Of a stretch of 64,000 nucleotides of DNA, positions 50,395 through 64,000 are shown piece by piece. Position numbers and translations under genes: made by a program. This stretch comes from Pedobacter cryoconitis (lineage in GTDB: Bacteria; Bacteroidota; Bacteroidia; Sphingobacteriales; Sphingobacteriaceae): positions 372,001 through 436,000 of the forward strand of contig NZ_JACHCG010000001.1 of assembly GCF_014200595.1 (NCBI RefSeq). The letters run 5' to 3'. Position 1 is the first letter of the stretch; each line of letters starts with the position of its first letter. The notes under the pieces are model-generated. The model was given only the letters and a program-made list of their open reading frames with translations. It was not told the DNA's origin and searched no databases.

Positions 50395-51150
50395 ATGAAC
50401 AAAAATTTGAAAAACTTCACTTTCATTGCGCTGGCCGCAATAGTGATCGCATCGTGTTCTAAAACCAAAGAAACACCTGTAGCCCCTGATCCTCAAACTG
50501 AGAAAACTGAAAAGGTATTATCCTATATTCAGAGCCTTGGATTTCCTTCATCAGCTATTGTTGAAAATGGTGATCACTATGTAGTGGAAGAAGATATTAT
50601 CTTCCCGAAAAACATGGTTATACCTGCTGGTCAGCCAAAAACTGAGCAATATTATACAGGTAGCCTTGTAAATGCGACCAATAAGAGAAATATACGCGTA
50701 AAAGTTGATGCTTCTATGACCAGCATGAACGCAGAAGTAACTTCTGCTGTGAATCAATGGAATGGAATTGCTGGTTCTACCGTTAAATTCTCTATAGTAA
50801 CAAGCGGAACTTATGACATCCTGATCAAAGATGAAAATCTTGGCAATGGTGTTTGCGGCCAGGGAACATTTCCTTCTGGCGGTGCTGCGGGTAACTTAAT
50901 TAAAATTAACAAGGCATATATTGCCGCAAATAGTTTTGCTCAGCGTCAAAGAACAATTACGCATGAGCTGGGTCACAATATTTCATTGAGACATACAAAC
51001 TGGTCTGCTATTGGGGAAGGCTCTGCCACAGCTGTACCTGGAGTTGGCGGAACAGATGCACTGTCATTGATGAATGGTGGTCAGTGTAATTCTGGCGCTA
51101 CCGTATTATCTGTAAAAGATAAACAAGCAACTGTTGCGTTATATCCATAA
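50395..51150 (+). CDS. M57-like zinc metalloprotease lipoprotein
   Basis: A 251-residue lipoprotein. Lipobox VIASC (Cys21) followed by SKTKET. The metal-binding motif is HELGHNISLRH (HExxHxxxxxH, about 195-205) and NGGQCNSG follows the Met-turn-like SLMNGG (about 220-226), the metzincin layout. Other features are YYTGSLVNATNKRNIRVKVD and AVNQWNGIAGSTVKF, found in proteins annotated as dual-action HEIGH metallopeptidases (M57). It likely acts on the outer surface or in the periplasm. Monocistronic, with a terminator downstream. Confidence 0.85.
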   Translation: MNKNLKNFTFIALAAIVIASCSKTKETPVAPDPQTEKTEKVLSYIQSLGFPSSAIVENGDHYVVEEDIIFPKNMVIPAGQPKTEQYYTGSLVNATNKRNIRVKVDASMTSMNAEVTSAVNQWNGIAGSTVKFSIVTSGTYDILIKDENLGNGVCGQGTFPSGGAAGNLIKINKAYIAANSFAQRQRTITHELGHNISLRHTNWSAIGEGSATAVPGVGGTDALSLMNGGQCNSGATVLSVKDKQATVALYP

Positions 51151-56697: not shown

Positions 56698-57591
56698 TTA
56701 ACAAGCCTGGTCGATATGGTTAACGAGGTGCCTGTTTTCTGCATAAGATTTTTGCTGATCTTTAAATCCGAATATCATCTTACCCATCGTTAAACTCTGG
56801 GGAACAGTGTGCCCGATAAAGACATCATGTTCAATTATATTTTTTAGGACTACTGTATGATTTTTTTTATGCGGAATACCTGAGCCAATAATAAGATCAA
56901 TAGCTTCAGACTGTTCTGCCAGCGTGATATTATCTGATGAATTGCCTTCTTTCTGATAATCAAGACCAGACAGGCATACGACAAAATCACAATTCATGTT
57001 GTTTTTAAGGTATGTTGCCACGTGGTTTGCTTTTTCGATTGGATCGTGAAAACCGATACCACTAATTTCCGGGCCTACTCCGGTAATCCCTATTTTGAAT
57101 TTACCGAAACTGATAACTTGCCATGGCTTTACAGCCGCAGCGAGTTTAAGATCATTAAATATATAGTTGCAGTTTACCAGGCAAAAGTTCATCTGATCTG
57201 ATAATTTAGCTAGATGAGCCTCACCATGACCAAGGTCTTGTACTGATGGCATACTGGTATGGTAACCGGCTTTATTCATGGCATCAATTACTGCGTAATG
57301 GTGGGTGAGATCATGATCAGACCCTAAAAAATTTCCTGCGTCTAAAATCAGGCCTCCGGTATCCTGGTTGTTCAGCAATTTGTTTAAATTGTTTATACCT
57401 CCGGGTTCTTTGGGATCTTTACGTATCTGACCATTCAGCTGACTGCTGTAATAAATAATCACGTTTTTACCAGAAGCATGCAAAGTAGCAGCGGTTTTAC
57501 TAAGATTAGCAAAGGAGCTGATTGATTTGCTGAGTAGGGTAGCGGTTGCTACAAGGGTTGTGTTTTTGAGAAACGACCTTCGGTTTGACAT
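56698..57591 (-). CDS. UshA/5'-nucleotidase-like phosphoesterase, apparently degenerate
   Basis: A 297-residue protein with a Tat-like signal: RRSFLKNTTLVATATLLSKS. The remaining chain follows the metallophosphoesterase order of UshA/5'-nucleotidases: a first strand then YYSSQLNGQI where active enzymes have H-x-N-D-x-H-G, DAGNFLG where they have DAGD, and later segments ITGVGPEISG and VVCLSGLDYQKEG. The His and Asp metal ligands of the first and second motifs are absent or replaced. It resembles a pseudo-enzyme that keeps the fold; an alternative is a diverged active site. It diverges from the collar-protein operon by about 200 bp. Confidence 0.6.
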   Translation of the reverse strand: MSNRRSFLKNTTLVATATLLSKSISSFANLSKTAATLHASGKNVIIYYSSQLNGQIRKDPKEPGGINNLNKLLNNQDTGGLILDAGNFLGSDHDLTHHYAVIDAMNKAGYHTSMPSVQDLGHGEAHLAKLSDQMNFCLVNCNYIFNDLKLAAAVKPWQVISFGKFKIGITGVGPEISGIGFHDPIEKANHVATYLKNNMNCDFVVCLSGLDYQKEGNSSDNITLAEQSEAIDLIIGSGIPHKKNHTVVLKNIIEHDVFIGHTVPQSLTMGKMIFGFKDQQKSYAENRHLVNHIDQAC

Positions 57592-57794
57592 AGCGTTAAA
57601 TTTAAGAGCACCATAAACTTAGATAAATTATATTGTCATTTCCAAGTCACAGAAAAAAAATAAAAAATATTGCATTTATAAAAAAATAAACTAATTTTAT
57701 GACACAAATAACAATACTTAAACAACTTAACTATTCAAGCAGGCTACTTTACATAAAAAAACGCTCACAACAATTCTTTAAATCCGCTCTCAAA

Positions 57795-58325
57795 ATGGAT
57801 GAATATCTTGGTTCAATAGGCATATTTCCTTTCGGATTTGCGCCTCGAAACTTTGCACAATGTAATGGGCAGCTCTTGTCCATCGCTCAAAATCAAGCCT
57901 TATTTTCTTTACTAGGTACCATGTACGGAGGAAATGGTGTACAAAACTTTGCTTTACCGGATTTCAGAGGAAAAGTCCCTATGCACATAGGTAATGGCTT
58001 TGTTCAGGGACAGGTTTCTGGCGAAGAGTCTCACACACTTGTGATGAACGAAATTCCTCAGCACAACCATACTTTGGGGTCTGGAAATGTTCGGGCAAAG
58101 GCGGGGCTCGGAAATGCCACCGTGTTAACTCCTGAAAACAATTATTATGCTGCAAACCCTGCTTTAGCGGGCCGCTTCAGTAATCAGACTGATACGGGGA
58201 TGTATAATAATGCACCTTTCAATACCCAGACTATCGGTGCGGGACAGGGACATGAAAACAGGATGCCATTTTTGGTATTGAATTTCTGTATCTGTATATC
58301 GGGTATTTTTCCTTCAAGAAACTAA
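57795..58325 (+). CDS. Phage tail collar domain protein 1 (MdpB-like)
   Basis: A 176-residue protein with the tail-collar (Pfam PF07484) domain: MDEYLGSIGIFPFGFAPRN, then QCNGQLLSIAQNQALFSLLG, GNGVQNFALPDFRGKVPMHIG and the C-terminal NRMPFLVLNFCICISGIFPS. The Met at 57795 is chosen because homologous starts begin M-x-x-Y/F-x-G-x-I; a longer frame opens at 57699, with 32 extra residues that do not resemble the family. First of three tandem copies. No signal peptide. Known examples are called MdpB and lie outside phages. Role unknown. Confidence 0.82.
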   Translation: MDEYLGSIGIFPFGFAPRNFAQCNGQLLSIAQNQALFSLLGTMYGGNGVQNFALPDFRGKVPMHIGNGFVQGQVSGEESHTLVMNEIPQHNHTLGSGNVRAKAGLGNATVLTPENNYYAANPALAGRFSNQTDTGMYNNAPFNTQTIGAGQGHENRMPFLVLNFCICISGIFPSRN

Positions 58326-58351
58326 ATCAAGTATTTTAAATCTATTGTATT

Positions 58352-58912
58352 ATGGCTACTAGCATGGAACCCTTTGTTGGGGAAATTGGTTTGGTTGGTT
58401 TTAATTTTGCACCCAGAGGATGGGCAACCTGTGATGGACAATTAATGTCTATATCTCAAAATACGGCCCTTTTTTCCTTATTGGGTACAACGTATGGGGG
58501 AGATGGAAGAACAACTTTCGCACTCCCGAATCTTAAAGGATCAGCTCCAATCGGGGCCGGTCAGGGGCCCGGATTAACTTACCGCAATTTAGGAGAGGTT
58601 AGCGGGACAACTTCAGAAACACTGTTGTTAAGTGAAATGCCTGCGCATACCCATGCATTGGGTGCAGGCCTTAAAACGGGGGTGGCACCTAATACTGCAA
58701 ATGCAGTGGCCAGTTTGCCTGCAACTTCTCCAGGTGCTGATCTGCTTTATTCGCCGACACCGAGCCCTACAGATTATATGGCTCCTCTGGCGGTGAACCT
58801 GGATACTCAAACGAATATACTGGGAGGTAATCAACCACATAATAATATGCAGCCTTACCTGGTTGTGATTTTTGTTATCGCCTTACAGGGCATTTTTCCT
58901 CCAAGACCTTAA
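58352..58912 (+). CDS. Phage tail collar domain protein 2 (MdpB-like)
   Basis: A 186-residue paralogue: EPFVGEIGLVGFNFAPRGWA, TCDGQLMSISQNTALFSLLG, DGRTTFALPNLKGSAPIGAG, LLLSEMPAHTHALGAG, and QPHNNMQPYLVVIFVIALQG plus IFPPRP. The HTH motif (HTHALG) after the collar is a His-rich turn typical of the family. It follows copy 1 by 26 bp and precedes copy 3 by 11 bp, so all are cotranscribed. The C-terminal PHNNMQPY segment is shared with copy 3; copy 1 has diverged here (ENRMPF). Confidence 0.88.
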   Translation: MATSMEPFVGEIGLVGFNFAPRGWATCDGQLMSISQNTALFSLLGTTYGGDGRTTFALPNLKGSAPIGAGQGPGLTYRNLGEVSGTTSETLLLSEMPAHTHALGAGLKTGVAPNTANAVASLPATSPGADLLYSPTPSPTDYMAPLAVNLDTQTNILGGNQPHNNMQPYLVVIFVIALQGIFPPRP

Positions 58913-58923
58913 ATTATAAAACT

Positions 58924-59484
58924 ATGTCAGCAGCACAACCTTATGTAGGTGAAATAACAATTTTTGGTGGCAATTTTGCTCCTGCGGGATGGGCATTTTG
59001 CGATGGCAGCTTACTGGCCATTTCGGAAAATGATATCTTATTCAATTTAATCGGCACTACCTTTGGTGGTGACGGACAGAATACTTTTGCTTTGCCTGAT
59101 TTAAGAGGCCGTGTACCTGTTCATATGGGTACGAATCCACAATCGGGTACTAATTATGTACTTGGACAGCTTGCAGGAGTAGAGAATGTAACTTTAACTC
59201 CCAATCAGCTTCCTCCGCATGCGCATACCGTAACCGGAGAACTGAATATGAAAGTCAGGGCAAATGATCCTGATACACAGACTTCTCCTGTAAATAATGG
59301 GATTGCTATTGCCGCGGGAAAGCGCTATTTCAGCCGCACGCCAACAGCATCAGGCATGATGCCACTGGATACTACTATTGTATTATCTGGTGCTGGTAAC
59401 AGTCAGCCTCATAATAATATGCAGCCATATGTGGTGCTCAATTATATCATTTCATTGTTCGGTATTTATCCATCACAAGGTTAA
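58924..59484 (+). CDS. Phage tail collar domain protein 3 (MdpB-like)
   Basis: A 186-residue paralogue, same length as copy 2: QPYVGEITIFGGNFAPAGWA, FCDGSLLAISENDILFNLIG, DGQNTFALPDLRGRVPVHMG, LPPHAHTVTGE and QPHNNMQPYVVLNYIISLFG. Copies 2 and 3 are the closer pair. All lack a signal peptide, a tail-spike or fibre repeat region and any recognisable phage neighbour. In known phages the collar joins the tail baseplate; here a role in a surface or export assembly is speculation. The next gene begins 5 bp after. Confidence 0.88.
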   Translation: MSAAQPYVGEITIFGGNFAPAGWAFCDGSLLAISENDILFNLIGTTFGGDGQNTFALPDLRGRVPVHMGTNPQSGTNYVLGQLAGVENVTLTPNQLPPHAHTVTGELNMKVRANDPDTQTSPVNNGIAIAAGKRYFSRTPTASGMMPLDTTIVLSGAGNSQPHNNMQPYVVLNYIISLFGIYPSQG

Positions 59485-59489
59485 GGCAT

Positions 59490-60641
59490 ATGAAAATAGG
59501 TGTACTGCTTCCAAATTCTACGACTTATCCGCTGATCTCTCATAATTTTATGACCGGGTTAAAAGGTAGTTTAGCTGAACTGGCAACTGCGTTGTCTCCT
59601 GAACTACTGACGGCAAGTATTGGCTTTGGAACAGATGGGGTGCTGATGCTGAAGGAAGCAGAAATCATGCTGCTGGATGAAAAAGCAGACCTGTTAATTG
59701 TTTTTGCAGATCATCCAACAATAGAGTGCCTGTTTCCTTTAATCAATGCGTTAAAAAAACTGCTGATTGTAGTGAACAGTGGTGCTAAATACCCTCCTGT
59801 CAAAAAACAACCTTTTGTAATTTATCATACCCTCAATTATGCGCTGCATTGCAGGCTGATTGGTAAAAATGCTGCTAAAGTAAGCAGTAAGGCTGTTGTT
59901 GCGACTTCTTATTACGATGGTGGATATAGTCTTTGCCATGCCATTACCAAGGGGTATGCAGATGAAGGAAGTTCAGTTGCTTTTAATTTCGTCAGCAAAT
60001 TTAATGCTGCGGAATTTGATATGGAGCCACTAACCAGCTTTTTAACTTCAAATCATGACGTTCGCCATATTATGGCTGTTTACAGTGATTTAAGTCCGGT
60101 TTTTTATGAAAGACTTGCCATTGAATTTCCGGCAATTCCGTTAAATATTTTCGTTAATCCGGCCATGCTCGAAGAACTTCATTTACCAGAATATGGAATA
60201 ACCAATAAGGAAATAGTTGTTAGCTCTTATCTGCCATGGGCGGCTCAATCTGCCACAAGCGGAAATGTAGCTTATTGCAATGCTTTTAAAAGTAAAACTG
60301 GCCGTGCGCCAGATGCTATTGGTGCATTAGGCTGGGATACGGGGGCATTAATTATAAAATATATCACGGTTTCTTTAGAGAATTCCCTTTTTAATACAAA
60401 ACAGCTTCTGAATGAACTGCTGGATGCTAAAATAGAGGGAGCTAAAGGAACAATCTACATAGATGGCAATACACATCAGGTGTTTTCACCCGCATACCAG
60501 GTCAAACTGGGAGCAGGGAATCAACTGATCATACAAGATACAGTGCCCTTAATTGAGGTACTTCGCGAATGGACTGAAATATACGATGATCCACCTCAGG
60601 GATTAGTGTCAGGATGGATTAATACTTATATGTGCTCTTAA
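59490..60641 (+). CDS. Periplasmic-binding-protein-like protein without a signal peptide
   Basis: A 383-residue protein with the type 1 solute-binding fold of branched-chain amino-acid (LivJ-like) receptors: MKIGVLLPNSTTYPLISHNF at the start, LIVFADHPTIECLFPLINAL, KKLLIVVNSGAKYPPVKKQP, VVATSYYDGGYSLCHAITKG and a lobe-2 segment ALGWDTGALIIKY. It starts directly at the first strand, with no signal peptide or lipobox, so it should stay in the cytoplasm, which is unusual for this fold outside regulators and receptors. There is no membrane permease or ATPase gene in the operon. It may sense a small molecule for the collar cluster. Confidence 0.75.
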   Translation: MKIGVLLPNSTTYPLISHNFMTGLKGSLAELATALSPELLTASIGFGTDGVLMLKEAEIMLLDEKADLLIVFADHPTIECLFPLINALKKLLIVVNSGAKYPPVKKQPFVIYHTLNYALHCRLIGKNAAKVSSKAVVATSYYDGGYSLCHAITKGYADEGSSVAFNFVSKFNAAEFDMEPLTSFLTSNHDVRHIMAVYSDLSPVFYERLAIEFPAIPLNIFVNPAMLEELHLPEYGITNKEIVVSSYLPWAAQSATSGNVAYCNAFKSKTGRAPDAIGALGWDTGALIIKYITVSLENSLFNTKQLLNELLDAKIEGAKGTIYIDGNTHQVFSPAYQVKLGAGNQLIIQDTVPLIEVLREWTEIYDDPPQGLVSGWINTYMCS

Positions 60642-60691
60642 ATAACTAAGTACAATCTAAATATATATTAACGCTCTTAATCCATCATACC

Positions 60692-63600
60692 ATGGAAATT
60701 TTTATTCAAAGGATAATCAAAGGCATAGTCTTGTCTTTGATTATCCTGACCAGCATTAGTTATAATGCTGTTGCACAGACTTGTACATTCGGTAAAGGGG
60801 ACGTGATCATTACTGGTTACGACCTTCAGGACGGAGGTACACCAGCAGGTCAGGACGACCGGTTCTCTTTTTTATTGTTACGCCAGATACCGGCAGGTAC
60901 AGACATCTACTTTACTGATTTTGGATGGACTTCTGCAAATGCTTTTCAGGCAGATGTGCAGGCGACAACCGATGGTGTAATTAAATGGACTTCGGATAAA
61001 AGCTATCCGGCGGGGACAGAAATTTATGTCTTCTGTAAGTACCAGTTAAAGGCTTTTGACAATACAAATGCCCCGGCAGGAACTGTCACGGGAATAGTTG
61101 AGTCAGTAGCCACCAGGGCAAATCCTCCTGGTGGAGATCACCAGTACATGAGCTTAGGTTTATTTTCTGGAGATCAGATTTTTGCTTTTACCGGTAGTGT
61201 CGCTGCGCCAACATTACTGGCGGGTATTAGTATGAACCATGACAATGGGGGTGGAGTTAGTGGCTGGGACGCGGCTTTAACCCCGACAACTTTTGCTGCT
61301 GACCGTTCTATGCTGCCTGCGGCACTGGCAAGTGGTGCACAGAATTTGTCTCTTATTTTACATGATGATCCGGGAGATCCTGCTTTTGATACGGGATTTA
61401 CTGCACGTTTCAAAAAAACAGCTGGTGCTGGTACTTTAGCCGGTACCCCTGCTGTAATTTTAGCCCAGCTTAATAATGCTGTTAATTGGGAATTCAAAAG
61501 TGACGGTACTTCTTTCTCACCTTTTCTTGCTGGTGAAACATTTACCGTATCCGGCGCTTCATTTACTACGAATCCAACAGATAAACTGAGCCAGTGCGCT
61601 GGAACAGGTACTACGTTTACTGCTGTGGCTGCTAACTTTTGTTCTTTGAAATGGCAGTTAAGTACAGATGGGGGAGCAAATTATGCAGATATTACTGATA
61701 ATGCGATCTATTCGGGATCTGCTACTGCCACACTTACTATTTCAAATGTCAATGGCTTAAATAATAATAAATACAGGCTGAACGCAAATGGCTCTTCAGG
61801 TATAGTCAGTTCGACCGGTGCATTGTTAACCTTATCCAGCCAGGTTATTAATTTATCGCCGGTTCTGGCTTCAGGAACTTATAAAACAGCCTATAGTCAA
61901 CCTGTAACGGTTGCTTCGGGTGGAGGAGCACCTTTTGCTTATACATTAGCTGTTCCGGGAACTTTGCCGGCTGGTTTAACGCTATCTTCGGCTGGGGTTA
62001 TTTCAGGTACACCAACTGCTGTTGGTACTTTTAATTTTACTGTTAATGTGACTGGTGCCTGTGTAAGTTCAGGTTCACAAGCCTTTTCACTGGTCATTGC
62101 ACCGAAAGCGGTAACTGCAACTTTTGCTGCGGTAACTAAAGCTTATAATGGAGATGCGGTTGCCAATGTTGTTTTTGATCCGCTTACAGTAGCAAGTGGG
62201 GTGGTCGCACCAGATGTGGTCAGTGTAACTTATACTTCAGCAGCTTATAATAATGCGGGTGTAGGAATTAATAAGCCGGTAACTTTAACCGGTCTGGCTT
62301 TAACAGGTGCTAACAGTGCATCATATACGTTAAACCCGGTGGTAGTTATAGGTACGATTACAACGGCTACGATTGTTCCTTCGCTGGTGCTGCCAATTAC
62401 TAAAGTATATGATGGCAATACCACAGCTGCTTTAACCAGTGCTAATTATAGTTTTACTGGTAAGGTAGGCGCGGAGGATGTAGCTTTAAATAATCCAGCT
62501 ACAGGAACTTATGCGCTAAAGGATATTGGTAACCGTTTGGTCAGTGTTACTGGTTTAACATTAACCGGAGCAAATGCAGCCAATTATACGCTTTCTACAA
62601 CAAGTGTAAGTGCAACGGGTACAATTACTGCGGCGAGTATCGTTCCATCTTTACTATTACCTATTACGAAGGTATATGATGGAAATACCACAGCCGCGTT
62701 AACTGCTGCAAATTATAGTTTTACAGGTAAGGTTGGAACAGAGAATGTAGCTTTAAATAATCCTGCTACAGGAACTTACGCACTTAAAGATGTTGGCAAC
62801 CGTTTAGTGAGTGTTACTGGTTTAGCACTTACTGGTACAGATGCCGGAAATTATATACTTTCGGCGACTAATGTCAGTGCAACCGGAACAATCACCTCAG
62901 CGACCATTGTACCTATATTAGGGGGTATAATTACCAAGGTATACGATGGCAATACCACAGCTGCTTTAACCAATGCTAATTATAGTTTTACAGGTAAGGT
63001 TGGTACAGAGAATGTAGCTTTAAATAATCCGGCTACAGGGACTTACGCATTAAAAGATGTTGGCAGCCGTTTAGTCAGTGTTACAGGTTTAACCCTGACG
63101 GGGACCGATGCTGGAAATTATATACTTTCGACTACCAATGTCAGTGCAAACGGAACAATCACCTCAGCGACCATTGTACCTGTATTAGCGGGCACAATTA
63201 CCAAGGTTTATGACGGCACCGTTGCTGCTGCCTTAACGGGTTCGAATTACAGCTTTACAGGAAAAATTGGTGCAGAGGATGTAACACTTAATAATCCGGT
63301 AGCCGGAACTTATGATCTGAAAGTTGCAGGTAACAGAACAGTAAGCGTGAACGGAATTGCGCTGACCGGAACTGATGCACTGAATTATACACTTTCTACT
63401 ACAAGTTTAACTGCTCCGGGTACAATTACCGCAGCGACGATTATACCAGTATTGGCGGGTACGATTACTAAGGTTTATGATGGCAATACTACTGCTGCGT
63501 TAACCGGATCGAATTACAGCTTTAGCGGAAATATCGGTGCAGATGATGTAAGCTTAAATAATCCTGTGACAGGCGCTTATGATCTGAAAGATGCAGGCAG

Positions 63601-64000
63601 CAGAACAGTAAGCGTAAACGGAATTGCGTTAATAGGTGCTGATGCTGCGAATTATACACTTTCCACTACGAGTTTAACTGCTGCGGGTACCATTACCTCA
63701 GCGACTATTGTACCTGTATTAGCAGGCACAATTACTAAAGTTTATGATGGCAATACTACAGCTGCTTTAACAAATTCGAATTACAGCTTCACCGGAAAGA
63801 TCGGTGCGGATGATGTGAGCTTAAATAATCCGGCAGCCGGAACTTATGACCTGAAGATTGCGGGCAGCAGAACAGTAAGCGTGAACGGAATTGCATTAAC
63901 AGGTGCTGATGCAGCGAATTATACGCTTTCTACCACGAGTTTAACTGCTGCGGGTACCATTACATCAGCGACCATTGTACCTGTATTAGCAGGCACAATT
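60692..64000 (+). CDS. Giant secreted YDG-repeat protein (partial, runs off the window)
   Basis: The frame opens at ATG 60692 and stays open for 1103 codons to the window edge. Parts: signal peptide ending NAVAQ (about residue 30); a strand-rich N-domain starting TCTFGKGDVIITGYDLQDGG, like domains of Bacteroidota surface proteins; an Ig-like region with CSLKWQLSTDGGANY; a putative-Ig (He_PIG) segment, LPAGLTLSSAGVISGTPTAV; then a YDG-repeat array from codon 471 onward. Each 89-residue unit has ITKVYDGNTTAAL, NYSFTGK, GTY-LKD, SVTG and the TIT strand. The C-terminus, probably with a type IX secretion sorting domain, is not in the window. Likely a long surface adhesin. Confidence 0.88.
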   Translation, partial: MEIFIQRIIKGIVLSLIILTSISYNAVAQTCTFGKGDVIITGYDLQDGGTPAGQDDRFSFLLLRQIPAGTDIYFTDFGWTSANAFQADVQATTDGVIKWTSDKSYPAGTEIYVFCKYQLKAFDNTNAPAGTVTGIVESVATRANPPGGDHQYMSLGLFSGDQIFAFTGSVAAPTLLAGISMNHDNGGGVSGWDAALTPTTFAADRSMLPAALASGAQNLSLILHDDPGDPAFDTGFTARFKKTAGAGTLAGTPAVILAQLNNAVNWEFKSDGTSFSPFLAGETFTVSGASFTTNPTDKLSQCAGTGTTFTAVAANFCSLKWQLSTDGGANYADITDNAIYSGSATATLTISNVNGLNNNKYRLNANGSSGIVSSTGALLTLSSQVINLSPVLASGTYKTAYSQPVTVASGGGAPFAYTLAVPGTLPAGLTLSSAGVISGTPTAVGTFNFTVNVTGACVSSGSQAFSLVIAPKAVTATFAAVTKAYNGDAVANVVFDPLTVASGVVAPDVVSVTYTSAAYNNAGVGINKPVTLTGLALTGANSASYTLNPVVVIGTITTATIVPSLVLPITKVYDGNTTAALTSANYSFTGKVGAEDVALNNPATGTYALKDIGNRLVSVTGLTLTGANAANYTLSTTSVSATGTITAASIVPSLLLPITKVYDGNTTAALTAANYSFTGKVGTENVALNNPATGTYALKDVGNRLVSVTGLALTGTDAGNYILSATNVSATGTITSATIVPILGGIITKVYDGNTTAALTNANYSFTGKVGTENVALNNPATGTYALKDVGSRLVSVTGLTLTGTDAGNYILSTTNVSANGTITSATIVPVLAGTITKVYDGTVAAALTGSNYSFTGKIGAEDVTLNNPVAGTYDLKVAGNRTVSVNGIALTGTDALNYTLSTTSLTAPGTITAATIIPVLAGTITKVYDGNTTAALTGSNYSFSGNIGADDVSLNNPVTGAYDLKDAGSRTVSVNGIALIGADAANYTLSTTSLTAAGTITSATIVPVLAGTITKVYDGNTTAALTNSNYSFTGKIGADDVSLNNPAAGTYDLKIAGSRTVSVNGIALTGADAANYTLSTTSLTAAGTITSATIVPVLAGTI
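62102..64000 (+). repeat. Seven YDG-domain repeat units (264 + 6 x 267 bp) and the start of an eighth
   Basis: Unit starts fall at 62102, 62366, 62633, 62900, 63167, 63434 and 63701; an eighth begins at 63968. The Asp/Asn of the YDG motif recurs every 267 bp (89 residues) except that the first spacing is 264. Units are very similar at the DNA level, and neighbours 3-4 and 6-7 are the most alike, which suggests recent copying or gene conversion. Confidence 0.95.

Follow-up and report, generated by a model that had tools for sequence, protein, structure and literature searches.

The tail tips of several phages, among them T4 gp12, the tip of T4 gp37, and the fiber of cyanophage A-1(L), have in common a collar domain; as described for gp37, it comes with an HxH motif, a variable insert, and a C-terminal piece that closes the domain. 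For gp37, two reports state that the H-x-H sites of the tip carry iron (PMC6363177), that the iron-binding histidines are required for function, and that the D10/D11 tip is inserted into a collar-like domain, which a short C-terminal piece then closes (both PMC6957217). Here, we describe three tandem genes of this kind from the end of a 64,000-nucleotide stretch of the Pedobacter cryoconitis genome (NCBI RefSeq assembly GCF_014200595.1, contig NZ_JACHCG010000001.1, positions 372,001 to 436,000, forward strand; hereafter the window), where they stand near the gene of a giant exported repeat protein. Their products carry a PF07484 domain, HxH, and the C-terminal closing piece, as in a phage collar-domain tail tip. 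At a probability of roughly 0.6, we consider the trio to be a domesticated phage tail-fiber tip, the three products of which (A, B, and C) now form a 1:1:1 heterotrimer, a binding head that would work together with the neighboring giant. This reading draws on features visible in sequences, namely the conservation and co-inheritance of the trio, its pairing with giants, the pattern of motif and loop, gene fusions, circular permutation, and versions that appear to have signal peptides.

The plus-strand run at the end of the window consists of the three collar genes, a gene for a type-1 binding fold (listed further below), and the start of the giant gene, with intergenic gaps of 26, 11, 5, and 50 bp in that order. 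The trio and the giant are located as follows, with lengths in amino acids (aa):

57795..58325, plus strand: collar subfamily A (PF07484, E 7e-25; subfamily by tree; HxH motif QHNH)
58352..58912, plus strand: collar subfamily C (PF07484, E 4e-27; subfamily by tree; HxH motif AHTH)
58924..59484, plus strand: collar subfamily B (PF07484, E 1e-27; subfamily by tree; HxH motif PHAH; AlphaFold2 monomer like phage tail fibers)
60692..64000, plus strand: giant YDG adhesin, the first 1,103 of 2,532 aa (18 YDG stretches, CHU_C, TIGR04131)

The open reading frame (ORF) of subfamily A opens at 57699, and translation probably begins at the ATG at 57795, giving a protein of 176 aa that matches the length of its orthologs. 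In all three window collars (176-186 aa), the chain opens directly with the collar domain, without a leader; their nearest named relatives are Pedobacter proteins, and the whole P. cryoconitis genome holds three collar matches. The remainder of the giant lies beyond the window, at L004:4193-11791 of the downstream stretch (L004). In full, the giant has 2,532 aa. It begins with a Sec-like leader (judged by eye), contains 18 YDG stretches, and ends in a type IX secretion system (T9SS) type B sorting domain. A PorP/SprF gene (L004:11803-12696; PorP_SprF, E 2e-49) is placed 3′ of it, followed by an RND-efflux set. Together, the CHU_C/TIGR04131 C-terminus and the adjoining PorP/SprF gene identify the giant, and not the trio, as a T9SS type B adhesin. 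The YDG repeats of the giant (60692-64000 and L004:4193-11791) were also matched by Pfam Ribosomal_S19 and NCBIfam ribA, presumably spuriously.

A scan of genome contigs returned at least 589 relatives, of which we kept the 80 that most resembled the window's B gene, the third collar. Three tandem collar genes were present in 74 of these 80 loci, a few being cut at a contig end (e.g., L068). The other six comprised a B::A fusion followed by C (L137), a locus in which the third collar begins at the contig end (L116), three that lie at contig ends (L111, L136, and L140), and one true pair (L119). The full set came to 104 loci, of which 93 have three collars, five have two, and six have one; L058, which was fetched for a weak Collar match and had no collar ORF by our profile, stands outside the 104. 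Gaps within the 93 triplets had a median of 14 bp (5th-95th percentile, 8-61 bp). In a FastTree reconstruction of the 279 collars, three clades were recovered, A (support 93), C (78), and B (47), and 82 of the 93 triplets had one member of each, as compared with 20.4 on average and never more than 36 when labels were shuffled (2,000 trials; the 11 of the 104 loci without three collar genes are left out of this count). Gene order among the 82 was ABC in 57, BAC in 17, ACB in six (the window included), and BCA in two; operon position failed as a subfamily label, it being the set that is conserved and not the position. An IQ-TREE reconstruction from 30 chosen loci of the 82 recovered the three groups whole, with SH-aLRT (approximate likelihood-ratio test) values of 69, 95, and 96, and in it three phage domains joined on the B branch.

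The triplets with one of each came from Pseudomonadota, Acidobacteriota, Chloroflexota, Bacteroidota, Actinomycetota, Verrucomicrobiota, Myxococcota, Bacillota, and, on plasmids, Deinococcota. Distances between loci correlated among A, B, and C (r 0.81-0.85, with a permutation maximum of 0.29), from which it follows that the trio travels as a set. Moreover, when 20 genomes carrying such loci were taken as a whole, 18 had exactly three collars, one had two, and one had six, the last as a pair of triplets separated by about 19 kb. Searching plasmids at the protein level gave 72 records, many of them with three places for 'tail fiber' genes and identities up to 55.5%, and hosts that included Deinococcus, Comamonas, Aminobacter, Ensifer, and Paenibacillus. 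Within Bacteroidota, a collar match was found in 38 of 158 sampled genomes, sorted by hand count into 16 tandem triples, six pairs, and single genes, with no larger cluster; six of the 14 newly read triplets in that sample had one of each by best profile.

The second line of evidence is the giant. An ORF of at least 1,500 aa started or ended within 1.5 kb at 44 of 58 loci versus 17 of 500 control positions, and one of at least 1,000 aa was within 2.5 kb at 52 of 58 loci versus 95 of 500. These counts were restricted to loci flanked on each side by at least 3 kb of contig (22 of the 80 were left out), and the control positions, taken from 20 stretches in 15 of the same genomes, replaced a 12-point control that was too small (three positive). 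By a looser bar, 97 of the 104 loci had an ORF of at least 600 aa within 6 kb. If the trio and the giant merely gathered in variable genomic regions, with no functional link, one might expect what is indeed seen, that the giants vary widely in their domains and in which side of the trio they occupy, that one locus (L078) has none within 6 kb although 9 kb of contig is available on each side, and that in the Bacteroidota sample, a count made without control positions of its own, an ORF of at least 1,000 aa was within 6 kb of 9 of 20 single collars and thus about as often as for triplets (8 of 14). However, the excess over control positions at the stricter bar, in many phyla and with gaps between trio and giant often below 100 bp, argues against such chance association, which we regard as rather improbable.

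The giants appear to leave the cell by whichever route their host provides. Export types included T9SS in Bacteroidota and a ShlB/FhaC-type partner in Comamonas and, by eye, SLH-like ends in Bacillota and autotransporter-like ends or starts in Pontibrevibacter and Aminobacter. By a crude test, a hydrophobic stretch was present near the start of 60 of the 72 giants with a complete start, and at the N-terminus of one of 82 proteins in each of A, B, and C. The lack of leaders would suit a trio that remains intracellular and serves as a scaffold or chaperone-like platform for modifying or maturing the giant or a small ligand in company with GNAT, DUF6916, formyltransferase, and hydroxylase-type proteins. 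So would neighboring enzymes of cytosolic type, with a GNAT enzyme at 74 of the 104 loci (counted, like all neighbors below, from clustered, unfiltered ORFs within 7 kb with representatives checked, some in GC-rich loci perhaps being spurious) and hydroxylase, PhyH, APS-kinase, sulfotransferase-like, or formyltransferase genes in several. Nevertheless, some three-collar fusions carry signal peptides and PEP-CTERM-like ends, and hypervariable loops suit contact with a ligand better than a constant scaffold, so that we consider an intracellular platform unlikely.

In Paenibacillus eucommiae, B and A are joined in a protein of 335 aa by a short glycine-containing linker and are followed by C. Among the best 120 of 7,994 relatives of this B::A protein, and with subfamilies assigned by best profile (at margins that were sometimes small), 41 of 45 two-region fusions combined A with B, and 22 of 31 unpermuted three-region fusions had one of each (20 B-A-C, one A-B-C, and one C-B-A). 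Taken together, the gene sets and the fusions suggest three different chains rather than a homotrimer of one product. Forty-one three-core proteins had a PEP-CTERM-like end (by a loose pattern), and all 41 were circularly permuted: the chain starts with the collar C-terminal piece (31 by pattern, the other 10 by reading of the printed starts), and no closing piece comes after the last core (39 by pattern, the other two by eye). In the 31 three-core proteins without a PEP-CTERM-like end, the closing piece was in front in one and behind in 27; an N-terminal hydrophobic stretch without a PEP-CTERM-like end was present in 19 three-core proteins. If three domains close into a ring, their chain would be expected to allow opening at a different point, and the permutation thus fits a closed ring of three collars. 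The fusions with predicted signal peptides suggest a binding head located outside the cytoplasm more than the assembly or sensing role first proposed for these genes. Permuted three-collar proteins with both a signal peptide and a PEP-CTERM-like end include P0196, P0204, P0211, P0248, and others, one of them from a Phycisphaerales genome.

The HxH motif was present in 278 of the 279 collars, and 61 of 69 three-core fusions had exactly three. The stretch that follows it was only 25-26% identical within a subfamily, versus 64-68% before and after. Modeled by AlphaFold2 as a single chain, the window B collar reached a mean pLDDT (predicted local distance difference test) of 72 and a pTM (predicted template modeling score) of 0.50; such middling confidence for a lone chain would be expected of an obligate trimer and is no proof of one. 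The best solved matches of this model were the cyanophage A-1(L) fiber (E 4e-6) and T4 gp12, the same two that were found by sequence. A structure from Bizionia, C24 (6ov6), was a weak structural match to it.

Viral relatives of the collars were more distant. The best identity in phage records was 37.7% among the 20 matches listed of 342, and relatives on viral contigs (the best 80 of 553 kept) were mostly 32-41% identical over their full length, with a few short segments up to 56%; one collar ORF was present at 63 of these 80 viral-contig loci, two at 13, and three at four. One 4.7-kb contig filed as viral has one each of B, A, and C (L192:492-2144) with the highest scores, and looks bacterial. 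The clear kinship to phage tail proteins could also mean that the collars act against phages, as subunits that poison the fiber tips of infecting phages or as decoys. However, the distance of the viral-contig relatives speaks against this, models of known anti-phage defense systems in PADLOC matched none of the seven proteins searched, and the pairing with giants would be left unexplained; we therefore rate an anti-phage role as very improbable.

By the same kinship, collar domains being phage tail domains, the trio could be what is left of a prophage, tailocin, or injection system. Yet a reading by eye of the ORFs from 50 kb in the window to about 24 kb past its end (at least 90 aa inside the window and at least 100 or 120 aa beyond it, part of them also scanned with profiles) showed no gene for a phage structural protein, a lysis protein, or an integrase. 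The annotation of nine plasmid neighborhoods likewise contained no other virion or injection-machine genes, with a tyrosine recombinase within 11 kb in two of the nine. A prophage remnant was rejected on the ORF lists downstream of the window, read by eye, and, given an intact trio co-inherited across many phyla, any remnant of this sort is scarcely credible. The original prediction, which was made from the window alone, had proposed a non-phage unit linked to a surface protein, and this was borne out as far as about 24 kb beyond the window. It had also named two outcomes that would speak against it; neither the phage genes just past 64 kb (by eye, in the ORF lists) nor a lack of conserved co-occurrence came true, the latter in view of the three tandem collars in 74 of 80 loci and the giant beside 44 of 58.

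Two further genes at the window locus may be accessory:

59490..60641, plus strand: type-1 periplasmic-binding-fold protein without a leader, an optional accessory (PF13458 Peripla_BP_6, E 7e-13)
56698..57591, minus strand: UshA-like protein, divergent, with a twin-arginine-like leader, a possible accessory (NF041198, E 8e-14)

The profile of the binding-fold family matched PDB 4evq at E 2e-34. Its fold is that of ABC (ATP-binding cassette) transporter substrate-binding proteins; the window copy has no leader, and no ABC genes were seen beside it by eye. The protein was found in nine of 59 genomes searched, its own included, with a collar gene beside it in all nine, and in 20 of the 104 loci, a number on which we rejected it as a core component. 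Among the 30 binding proteins listed, twin-arginine leaders were read by eye in four from outside Bacteroidota (L059, L116, L117, and L147, on two Deinococcus plasmids, in one Myxococcota locus, and in one Chloroflexota locus), and L115 was unclear. The UshA-like ORF scored 51 bits against NF041198, for which the cut-off is 275, and had no Pfam match. Measured against these data, the original prediction was correct in the coordinates and spacing of three tandem collars, a binding fold, and a signal-bearing giant (26, 11, 5, and 50 bp), and needs correcting in that its range of 56698-64000 takes in the ORF at 56698-57591, which is the UshA-like gene on the minus strand. Its description of the binding protein as cytosolic stands for the Bacteroidota copies and fails for the relatives with twin-arginine leaders elsewhere (by eye). 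Its unit of collars, binding protein, and giant does co-occur and was drawn too narrowly, since the core is the trio plus the giant, in at least nine phyla.

Other neighbor clusters were a DUF6916 protein (63 of 104 loci), the UshA-like protein (11 of 104, 10 of them in Bacteroidota), an Asp/Asn hydroxylase (11 of 104), and a formyltransferase (seven of 104). The GNAT and DUF6916 clusters are absent from the window locus, which has the binding protein instead. DUF6916 (PF21880) is a family of about 100 aa with no assigned function and a frequent neighbor of the trio (e.g., L067, L070, L088, and L128). Genes for Asp/Asn hydroxylase, PhyH, APS-kinase, sulfotransferase-like, and formyltransferase proteins occurred in differing sets at L047, L050-L053, L056, L057, and L125; these are mostly single-collar or all-B loci, such sets were not seen at the window locus, and they possibly constitute a protein-modification module. 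Elsewhere in the window, a lipoprotein-like ORF (50395-51150) has a zinc-metalloprotease-like motif, HELGHNISLRH (by eye).

In the mechanism that we propose for a heterotrimeric binding head, the subunits A, B, and C would replace the three identical chains of the phage tip and close into one 1:1:1 trimer around a shared metal site, with each chain bringing its own hypervariable loop, so that the head would have three different faces. The giant exported repeat protein would be the long stalk or scaffold, and the trimer would bind a glycan or another surface ligand multivalently, in the manner of a lectin, the two together forming an adhesion or matrix module at the cell surface. We infer the stoichiometry, the metal, ligand binding, and contact with the giant. 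The GNAT, DUF6916, hydroxylase-type, or binding-fold neighbors might be parts for maturation or ligand handling. Leaderless lectins of other bacteria are released by lysis; for the collars, lysis or a piggy-back exit with a twin-arginine partner are our guesses. The wider evolutionary version, in which a homotrimeric phage tip became a three-gene heterotrimer that was kept in at least nine phyla, was fused and permuted for secretion in some lineages, and serves as the head of a module on giants exported by the host's own route, seems to us about evenly balanced between right and wrong.

Several observations weigh against the heterotrimeric head. The 80 loci were chosen by their likeness to the window's B gene, and the B clade had a support of 47 in the FastTree reconstruction. 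The one-each rule is not universal: it is broken in 11 of the 93 triplets, seven of them all B, and in nine of the 31 unpermuted three-region fusions, and it holds in seven of 16 Bacteroidota triplets once the window and the all-B G056 are added, so that it looks looser there. For the permuted domains, the subfamily was not assignable. No single domain common to all giants was found; a beta-helix end is common to those of 30 of the 104 loci and is absent from the window's giant. Single collars also adjoin giants, and the trio is therefore not always needed. The leaderless A, B, and C (one of 82 each with a hydrophobic N-terminus) have no visible export route. Finally, structural support comes from a single modeled chain of middling quality (pTM 0.50), and the AlphaFold2 model of the B::A fusion (pLDDT 57.5) had an unusable second half, probably because the A rows of the alignment were placed on the first half.

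If the heterotrimeric head is correct, it would provide a role for a very common and unexplained gene family with at least 8,000 relatives. It would also present the passage from a symmetric viral trimer to an asymmetric cellular protein with its stages visible (one gene, three, two-in-one, three-in-one, and permuted and secreted), and a surface module common to Gram-negative and Gram-positive bacteria that is testable with four genes.

With respect to described systems, relatives of the collars bear the database names COG4675 'microcystin-dependent protein' and 'tail fiber protein', which state no function. A soil metaproteome study lists COG4675 from Pedobacter, Acidithrix, and Ramlibacter, indicating that collar-family proteins are made in soil (PMC5579227). 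The mosaic adhesive trimers (MAT) of Bdellovibrio are similar in being phage-fiber-like trimeric surface proteins with variable tips, and differ in that their trimer is symmetric, built from one kind of chain, with a conserved domain of about 130 aa after the signal peptide (PMC10769870); the word 'collar' is absent from the main text of that report as available, and the window collars are leaderless, have 176-186 aa, and begin at the collar domain. Among T9SS type B adhesins with PorP/SprF, the window's giant and its neighbor fit well, while elsewhere the trio adjoins giants with other export signals. To our knowledge, the SprB/SprF sets described so far do not include collar genes. In the open-access literature, nothing describing the trio or its neighbors was found, a weak test whose coverage stops short of subscription papers and preprints. 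Compared with phage tips, the trio consists of three different genes and not one, the window proteins are without a shaft or baseplate part, no virus is present, a giant exported protein stands beside the trio, and single-chain and circularly permuted versions exist. Overall, the folds are known, whereas no known system among those tested matches the three-gene set, its pairing with a giant, or the permuted single chains.
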